From: Thermus oshimai DSM 12092
GTDB lineage: Bacteria; Deinococcota; Deinococci; Deinococcales; Thermaceae
Direction: 5' to 3'
Length of the DNA: 47,232 nucleotides
Assembly: GCF_000373145.1 (NCBI RefSeq)
Contig: NZ_KB890625.1
Span: forward strand, 1-47,232
Below are positions 1-22,644 of the stretch, piece by piece (the stretch's first letter is position 1; the number at the start of each line of letters is the position of its first letter). Below the pieces are notes generated by a model. The model saw nothing but the letters and a program-made list of their open reading frames with translations, did not search any database and was not told the origin of the DNA. The translations under genes and the position numbers were made by a program.

Positions 1-258
1 CGTTGGGTCCAGGGAGTCAAGACACCACCCTATCGGGTCAGGGGAGGAAGGGTGGTGGAGACGGGGTGGAGAGGGTGGATGGGAAGGGTACGGAACTGGA
101 TAGAGACCCGCTTCAGCGTGATGGTGCGGTCTTTGGGGCTTCATCGGATAGAGGCCCGGTCCTACTGGGGGCTGGTGGCCCGGGTGAACCTCATCCTGCT
201 TGTTCACAACCTCATACGTAGCCGGGTGCTTCTCAGGATGGCCGGGGTGGAGCTATGA
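1..258 (+). mobile_element. C-terminal fragment of an IS transposase
   Basis: The frame is open from the first base of the window and ends in TGA at 256-258, so this is the 3' end of a gene that starts outside. The last 85 residues contain WIETRFSVMVRSLGLHRIEA followed by a hydrophobic stretch ending HNLIRSR. An R-x-x-IET-x-FS motif near the C-terminus, carrying the third acidic residue, is typical of DDE transposases of the IS4/IS5/IS982 kind. I cannot tell whether the element is intact upstream and could not identify its terminal inverted repeat; the right end should lie between the stop codon and base 290. Confidence 0.7.
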
Positions 259-276
259 GGTAGCACACGAAGGAAT

Positions 277-20869: not shown

Positions 20870-21901
20870 ATGCGGCTTCTCCTCTTCCGGCAACGGAACT
20901 TCCGCAACCTGGCCCTTACGGCCTACCGCCCCCCCGAGGGGCTTTCCGCGGTGGTGGGGGGGAACGCCCAGGGCAAGACCAACCTCCTAAGGGGGATCCA
21001 CCTCCTCCTCACGGGGGAGATGGAGGGAGGCCTCCAGGACCAGATCCGCTTCGGGGAAGGGGAGGCCTGGCTGTGGGGCGAGGTGGAGACCGCCTTAGGG
21101 GTCTTCCGCCTCGAGGCCACCCTCACCCTCGAGGGGCGCACCTTCCGGATCAACGAGAAGCCCACGGGGCTTAAAGGGCTCCTGGAGCTTCCGGGCTCCG
21201 TCCTCCTTTCCCCGGAGGACGTGGAGGTGGTCCTGGGCAGCCGGGAGGCCCGGCGGGGCTTTCTGGACCGGCTGATCGCCCGCTTCTCCGCCCGGTATGG
21301 GGGGCTCCTTTCCGCCTACGAGAAGGTCCTAAGGCAACGGAACGCCCTCCTGCGCCAGGGGGGAAACGGCCTTTCCGCCTGGGACCAGGCCCTGGCCCGC
21401 TACGGGGAGGAGATCATGGCCTATAGGAGGCGCTTCCTCGCCCGCTTCCTGCCCATCCTGGAGGAGGTCCACGCCGCCTTGGGGGGAAAAGGGGTGGGGG
21501 TGGACCTGGAAGAGACCGCAGGCCAGGGGCTTCTGGAAGCCCTGAAGGCCACGGCCAAGGAGGAGCGGGAGCGGGGCCAGACCCTGGTGGGGCCGCATCG
21601 GGACGACCTCCTTTTCCTCCTTGCGGGCCGGCCCGCCCATCGCTTCGCAAGCCGCGGCGAGGCCAAAACCCTGGCCCTCGCCTTAAGGCTTGCGGAGCAC
21701 CGCCTCCTCTGGCAACACCACGAGGAGCCCCCTCTCCTCCTCCTGGACGAGTGGAGCGAGGAGCTGGACGAGGCCCGGCAAAAGGCCCTTTTGGCCTACG
21801 CTCGAGGCCTCCCCCAGGCCATCCTGGCGGGGCTCAGCGCCCCAGAGGGGGTGCCGGTATGCTGGATGGAGGGGGGGGTGGTGCTGTGCCCTGGCGGCTG
21901 A
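20870..21901 (+). CDS. recF: DNA replication and repair protein RecF
   Basis: A 343-residue SMC-like ATPase that helps RecO and RecR load RecA at gaps. Walker A is GGNAQGKTN (30-38), the ABC-like signature region is [23 protein letters not shown], and Walker B is [16 protein letters not shown]. It lies 2 bp after an MFS gene instead of in the usual dnaA-dnaN-recF group, and the following DciA-like gene starts within its last codons. Confidence 0.93.
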
Positions 21902-22644
21902 AGGAGGCGGTGCCCCTGGCCCTAGGCCAGGCGGGAAGCCGGGCCAGGCTGGAGCGGGCCCTCGTCCTCGCCTACTGGAAGGAGGCGGTGGGGAAGGAGC
22001 TCGCCCAGCTCACCGAGGCCGTGGCCTTAGAGGATGGGGTCCTCACCGTGCTGGTGGGGGATGCGGTCTTGGCCCACCAGCTCACCTACCGCCGGCTGGA
22101 TCTTCTCCAGCGCTTTTCCGCCCGCTTTCCCGGGAAGGTGCGGGAGATCCGCTTCCGGGTGGGGCCCCTGGAGGCCCCTCCGCCGGAGGAAAGCCCCCAG
22201 GAAGAGCCCCTCACCCCCGCCCTTTTGCAAAAGGCCCGGGCCCTGGCCGAGGCCGCGCCCCCAGAGCTTCGGGAAAAGGCGGAGCGGGCCGCCCTGGCCC
22301 TCTTGAAAAGGCAGCGGGGAAACCCCTGCCCCATCTGCCAGACCCCAAGCGAGAAGAGCCCTTGCCCCACCTGCCGCCGCCACCTGCAAAGCCCCCTGGT
22401 GGCCAAGGAGGCCGAGAGGCTCGCCCGGGGAAAGCCCCCCAGGCTTTCCGGCGAGGCCCTCCTGGCCGCCCGGCACCTGGCCCGGGAAAAGCTTCTCTCC
22501 GAACTTCGGGGCCTCTACCCCGTGGCCCTGAAGGAGCCCGAGTTCTGGCCACTTCTCAAGGACCTAGCCCGGCGCTTCCAGGCCCTCTTTCCCGAAGAAG
22601 CCCTGCCCGATGGGGTGCAAAGCCTCCTCAAGCGGATAGAATAG
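21886..22644 (+). CDS. DciA-like (DUF721) protein with a C-terminal zinc module
   Basis: About 252 residues. I choose GTG 21886 because a GGAGGGG sequence lies about 10 nt upstream; it overlaps recF by 16 bp. The N-terminal part (about 1-95) resembles DUF721/Dci[37 protein letters not shown], the fold used by DciA, the ancestral loader of the DnaB helicase. A linker leads to a four-Cys zinc site (Cys148, 151, 160, 163: CPIC, CPTC) and a helical tail of about 85 residues. The RecF neighbour supports a replication or repair role. Confidence 0.7.

Follow-up and report, generated by a model that had tools for sequence, protein, structure and literature searches.

What does the long C-terminal extension contribute to the DciA-like protein encoded beside recF in Thermus oshimai DSM 12092? 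Helicase loading by DciA is very widespread among bacteria, its mechanism being known from a few species, and an extra domain that is present across an order and carries invariant cysteines provides a clean handle on the targeting of the loader. We analyzed the gene in its window, the whole stretch of 47,232 nucleotides in which it lies, and compared it with its relatives throughout the order. For this comparison, 82 loci were collected; the window's own copies (L001 and L004) were set aside, as were three loci (L009, L011 and L012) in which the last 150 residues duplicate another locus, leaving 77 relatives and the window protein, that is, 78 distinct rows. Three of the loci (L031, L073 and L074) are incomplete, with the cysteines present. 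The features of the gene pair are collected in Table 1.

Table 1. Features of recF and dciA in the window, with DciA residues counted from ATG 21859.
Feature	Position	Residues	Strand	Basis
recF	20870..21901		+	NF010680 recombination protein F, 464.9 bits (cut-off 386); TIGR00611, 252.1 bits (cut-off 172)
dciA	21859..22644		+	ORF and translation; PF05258, 62.7 bits; start positions in relatives
DUF721 / DciA core, KH-like / DnaA domain I-like fold	21898..22167	14-103	+	PF05258, residues 14-99; match to 7ykm
Proline/glutamate-rich linker	22168..22209	104-117	+	Sequence; pLDDT <50 at residues 105-115
Helix hairpin, putative equivalent of the hairpin at the C terminus of V. cholerae DciA that binds DnaB	22210..22317	118-153	+	Helices 120-130 and 138-151 (AlphaFold2); profile alignment to 8a3v_C
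C4 zinc-knuckle-type module, CPIC-x8-CPTC	22318..22383	154-175	+	Four cysteines aligned in 78/78 rows
C-terminal helical domain	22384..22641	176-261	+	AlphaFold2 pLDDT; one strong match at dciA in 40/41 genomes

The gene and its DciA core

Both in-frame starts of dciA, ATG 21859 (261 aa) and GTG 21886 (252 aa), lie inside recF, which they overlap by 43 nt and 16 nt, respectively. The statement of the preliminary description that translation begins within recF is borne out, with two candidate starts. The gene arrangement of the window recurs in 14 of the 25 Thermus rows and is absent from 8, with the other three (L015, L019 and L031) mixed or unclear. All 14 window-like rows carry ATG or GTG at the position of ATG 21859, and 12 of them have a start codon at that of GTG 21886, the start originally assigned to the gene. 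At the Thermus loci L021-L028, a search of the 120 nt around the stop codon of recF gives starts solely at 14-113 nt past it, and L019 has dciA starts both before and after the stop. Because the start positions differ among the Thermus rows, the overlap of recF and dciA is not fixed even within the genus. On the same strand upstream of recF, an ABC ATPase and an MFS transporter are encoded, and a LysM-NlpC/P60 gene is located downstream of dciA.

The protein is a genuine, well-conserved DciA, as had been proposed from its DUF721 part. The DciA family PF05258 matches residues 14-99 with a score far above the cut-off of 24 bits, the match is the only one in the T. oshimai genome, and all 53 scanned dciA members match the family at E values up to 0.1. 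The solved DUF721 domain of Deinococcus radiodurans DciA (7ykm) was found by profile search with E 5e-32 and superimposes on the model with Z 13.5 and rmsd 2.3 over 79 aligned residues (35% identity), so that fold and sequence are common to the two proteins; domain I of DnaA (4tps_B) matches the DUF721 model with Z 9.4. Because the 105-residue chain of 7ykm is matched up to residue 103 of the Thermus protein, this structure contains neither the hairpin nor the zinc-helical domain. The genome encodes one DnaB (567 bits). A search for DnaC/DnaI with PF01695 returned one match above the cut-off, inside an ORF read as DnaA, and a second match of 20.6 bits, below the cut-off.

Beyond DUF721, the protein was compared with V. 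cholerae DciA in complex with DnaB (8a3v), in which a KH-like domain, a proline-rich linker and a hairpin follow one another in the same order as predicted for the Thermus protein, whereas its 163-residue chain stops at the hairpin and has no counterpart of the zinc-helical part. The superposition of 8a3v_C on the model extends over 131 residues (model residues 17-154, Z 10.8) with an rmsd of 11.1, and the two domains are therefore positioned differently from the model. At the profile level, the family aligns to 8a3v_C through the C-terminal hairpin, reaching its residue 160; the score is 19.6 bits, compared to a mean of 12.8 bits when this C-terminal part is shuffled, with the real score attained by 5 of 500 shuffles. 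When the hairpin part is scored alone against V. cholerae DciA, 18 of 500 shuffles attain the real score, a modest match. Residues 14-153 thus look like a complete, ordinary DciA, to which residues 154-261 appear to have been appended, the hairpin half of this assignment being the more modestly evidenced one.

The zinc module and the helical tail

Taken together, the sequence and the predicted models show a protein composed of a DUF721 domain of KH-like fold, a proline-rich linker, a hairpin and an appended domain in which two CxxC knuckles precede a bundle of helices. The two CxxC pairs that had been noted previously, CPIC and CPTC, are invariant: C157, C160, C169 and C172 are aligned in all 78 distinct rows of the order, and a chance origin of the pattern is excluded because of this complete alignment. 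A zinc site in the C-terminal part of this DciA is therefore likely, judging from the sequence. Among the motifs listed, the two pairs are commonly separated by a loop of 8 residues, which extends to 33-34 residues in four loci (L072, L079, L080 and L082). In the 53 of the 78 rows that were realigned, the invariant positions are W40, G45 and F99 in DUF721, the four cysteines, and A204 and L219 in the tail.

Conservation is not confined to the cysteines. Averaged over the alignment columns, the entropy is 1.58 in DUF721 (residues 14-99), rises to 2.44 in residues 100-127 and 1.98 in residues 128-153, and is 1.67 in the zinc module, 1.85 in residues 176-248 and 1.92 in residues 249-261. Hence the helical tail is kept nearly as well as DUF721 (1.85 vs 1.58). 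The best conserved positions of the tail are mostly hydrophobic, and its net charge is near neutral (median +2, range -5 to +7 in 78 rows).

The AlphaFold2 model of the full-length protein, for which the input comprised only three close Thermus sequences, includes a KH-like DUF721, a disordered linker and the two hairpin helices, followed by predicted helices at residues 170-176, 179-189, 198-225, 227-243 and 251-260. Across residues 171-260, the block pLDDT is 88-94, with the last few residues lower; the placement of the domains in this model is not trusted because its pTM is 0.45. When the part from residue 120 onwards is modelled alone, the mean pLDDT is 87.4 and the pTM 0.70, with values of 91-97 in the tail, again lower in the last few residues. 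The preliminary description had mentioned a helical tail of 85 residues; the predominantly helical character is supported by these models, but the length past the last cysteine is 89 residues. A Foldseek search with the zinc-helical part yielded no confident structural relative (best E 2.7 in the PDB and 0.95 among viral models), which is not proof of a new fold, and in a further structural comparison the best match was AfC3PO (3zc0_A; Z 5.8, rmsd 3.3, 80 aligned residues). An origin of the tail by internal duplication of DUF721 was also considered and rejected (hhalign probability 0.6%).

Spread across the order and the recF neighbourhood

A dciA gene was found in 79 of the 81 genomes of the order and in all 71 good assemblies; the two genomes without a match are 58% and 71% complete. 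A single strong hit (E 4e-28 or better), always at dciA, was obtained in 40 of the 41 genomes searched with a profile of the zinc-helical part built from 21 rows; the best E in the remaining genome, the 58% complete one, was 0.02. Seven weaker matches in all were obtained in the 41 genomes, that genome included, with E values of 0.002-0.07. Searches for DciA relatives in plasmids and in phages found none. The combination of DciA with the zinc-helical domain is thus the standard form for the order and not a local oddity. The earlier characterization of the protein as a fusion is apt insofar as the domain follows an apparently complete DciA, but it describes the normal form in this order, and DciA with a zinc finger has been published already. 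In the accessible text of Brezellec 2016 (PMC5109545), dciA is said to encode in some cases a C-terminal zinc finger, with Cyanobacteria named; these proteins resemble the Thermus DciA in the zinc finger and in the recF/gyrB neighbourhood. According to the same text, 15 of 23 phyla, Thermus-Deinococcus among them, have dciA in a dnaA-dnaN-recF-gyrB-gyrA operon or as a neighbour of recF or gyrB. The protein, the genes around it and the occurrence of DciA with a zinc finger are accordingly known, and novelty in these respects is low.

The proximity of recF had led to the suggestion that the protein couples helicase loading to gap repair by RecF or RecFOR. As in the window, recF is directly upstream of dciA in 49 of the 77 relative loci. 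However, because the recF neighbourhood is so widespread across phyla, it is hardly informative about a special function of this protein, and the domain is kept without an adjacent upstream recF in at least 24 of the 77 loci. In 16 of the 77, recF is on the same strand but more distant, its stop lying 0.9-3.2 kb from the W40 codon, and in 5 it is on the opposite strand. At L035, one of the loci without coupling, recF and dciA are separated by ORFs, including one that is encoded on the opposite strand. The sequence retrieved for 6 loci yielded no recF: three of these (L041, L045 and L047) include about 3.6 kb or more of upstream sequence, and in the other three (L040, L073 and L074) the contig ends too soon for its presence to be judged. 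At the remaining locus, L015, the recF frame is irregular.

The second potential argument for gap repair, a likeness of the zinc module to RecR, reduces to the cysteines. The CxxC-x8-CxxC spacing is the same as that in the Cys4 zinc finger of the RecR encoded by the same genome; the RecR_ZnF family (PF02132) scores 16.1 bits with DciA, below its cut-off of 22, and matches 13 of the 53 dciA members at E values up to 0.1 (best 0.0085). RecR was also retrieved in the PDB profile search with DciA (E 0.004), and the hhalign probability for the zinc module is 91.7% with RecR (88.0% by a second tool). Nevertheless, the probability with ribosomal protein L32 is nearly as high, 86.6%, that with a PP-loop control protein, presumably TtuA-like, is 26.2%, and, once the cysteines are masked, the values become 0.2 for RecR, 0.0 for L32 and 0.1 for the PP-loop protein. 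Furthermore, RecR_ZnF scores 22.4 bits, above its cut-off, in a PP-loop protein of the T. oshimai genome that contains CERC-x8-CSFC (G000:C13:27446-27505), and the model therefore detects cysteine spacing in unrelated proteins. Kinship of the zinc module with RecR is rejected on these grounds, given that only the cysteine pattern is common and the two are otherwise without similarity. With both lines of argument failing, we regard a coupling to gap repair as highly improbable.

Independently of this question, in 10 of the 12 genomes of family f3 (G058, G062, G065, G067, G069, G071, G073, G075, G077 and G079), RecR itself scores above its cut-off, yet RecR_ZnF has no match at E values up to 0.001. 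In these ten genomes, the zinc finger of RecR may have degenerated, whereas the DciA cysteines are kept.

Possible roles of the appended domain

We interpret the protein, with a probability of about 0.78, as the Thermus DciA helicase loader in the form that is standard for the order, with DUF721, linker and hairpin followed by an appended zinc-helical domain that would dock on a replication partner or on DNA. As judged from DciA of other bacteria, the hairpin together with DUF721 would bind at the edge of the DnaB ring, on its linker/docking-helix module, DUF721 would contact single-stranded DNA, and DciA would thereby bring DnaB to unwound DNA. The zinc site is probably structural and would attach the bundle of helices to the hairpin; the bundle itself could offer a docking surface, specific to the lineage, by which the loader is held on DnaB, DnaA, primase, SSB or DNA. 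In V. cholerae, the DciA hairpin is reported to sit on the LH-DH module of DnaB (accessible text of PMC9912922). Caulobacter crescentus DciA, as described in the available part of PMC9825169, has 179 residues and an N-terminal extension; its DUF721 is followed, as in Thermus, by a C-terminal extension, which there binds DnaB through leucines, and the word 'zinc' is absent from the main text of that paper. Mycobacterial DciA is the subject of PMC5720831.

A more specific and tentative proposal, which we consider possible rather than probable, is that the roughly 108 conserved residues of the zinc-helical domain form an undescribed module, with no recognised relative in the collections tried, that provides a second docking site, independent of DnaB, on DnaA, primase, SSB or fork DNA, thereby replacing a targeting function performed otherwise in better-studied bacteria. 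In the accessible portions of open-access main texts, we found no published description of the helical domain; the searchable text of PMC9865707 and PMC12547741 contains neither 'zinc' nor 'Thermus'. Among the open literature on zinc-finger DciA, PMC5109545 alone concerns, by its title, the replication protein, a literature search for COG5512 with a Zn-ribbon found nothing, and no paper on full-length D. radiodurans DciA surfaced in the open literature, although one may exist elsewhere.

Instead of docking on a protein, the zinc-helical domain could mainly bind DNA and keep DciA attached to a single strand or a fork while the helicase is loaded. Zinc knuckles are frequent nucleic acid binders, and five positions of the module and tail (R174, K183, R187, R190 and R205) are occupied by K or R in 76-90% of the rows. 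Furthermore, in Caulobacter DciA, both DUF721 and the N-terminal extension are reported to bind single-stranded DNA (title of PMC12547741). The near neutrality of the tail and the hydrophobic character of its best conserved positions argue against this possibility, as does the position of E199, which is D or E in 94% of the rows, and we consider DNA binding as the main function possible but not probable. Still less credence can be given to a role of the domain merely in adding thermal stability to the loader. Thermus is a thermophile, and the zinc-helical part models as a compact helical unit, in accord with such a role; however, the domain is conserved nearly as strongly as the DUF721 core and is kept by relatives across the order. 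These relatives include L064, the DUF721 of which is identical to the solved D. radiodurans domain at 52 of 84 positions, and which presumably represents a close relative of D. radiodurans, a mesophile. We therefore consider thermal stability an improbable explanation and retain the interpretation of the domain as a putative docking element of the loader.

The DnaB proteins of Thermus and its relatives were compared at 30 loci (L127 from the window genome and L180-L208 from relatives), 8 of which were unreadable. At the position in the DH helix that is Gly in the DnaB of E. coli and Geobacillus, Gly is present in 20 of the 22 readable rows, T. oshimai included, and Ser in the other 2. We take this position to be the published Ser/Gly discriminator between helicases of the DciA type and those of the DnaC/I type; if it is, the aligned sequences suggest that Thermus DnaB mostly breaks the rule, with the Gly of the DnaC/I type, which would count against the assignment of DciA as the loader. 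In the DnaB of several relatives, for example, in G009, G031, G034 and G042, the match stops at query residue 384-385 in frames of 887-892 aa, and the interruption looks like an intein. The DnaB of T. oshimai has a full-length match in a frame of 467 aa.
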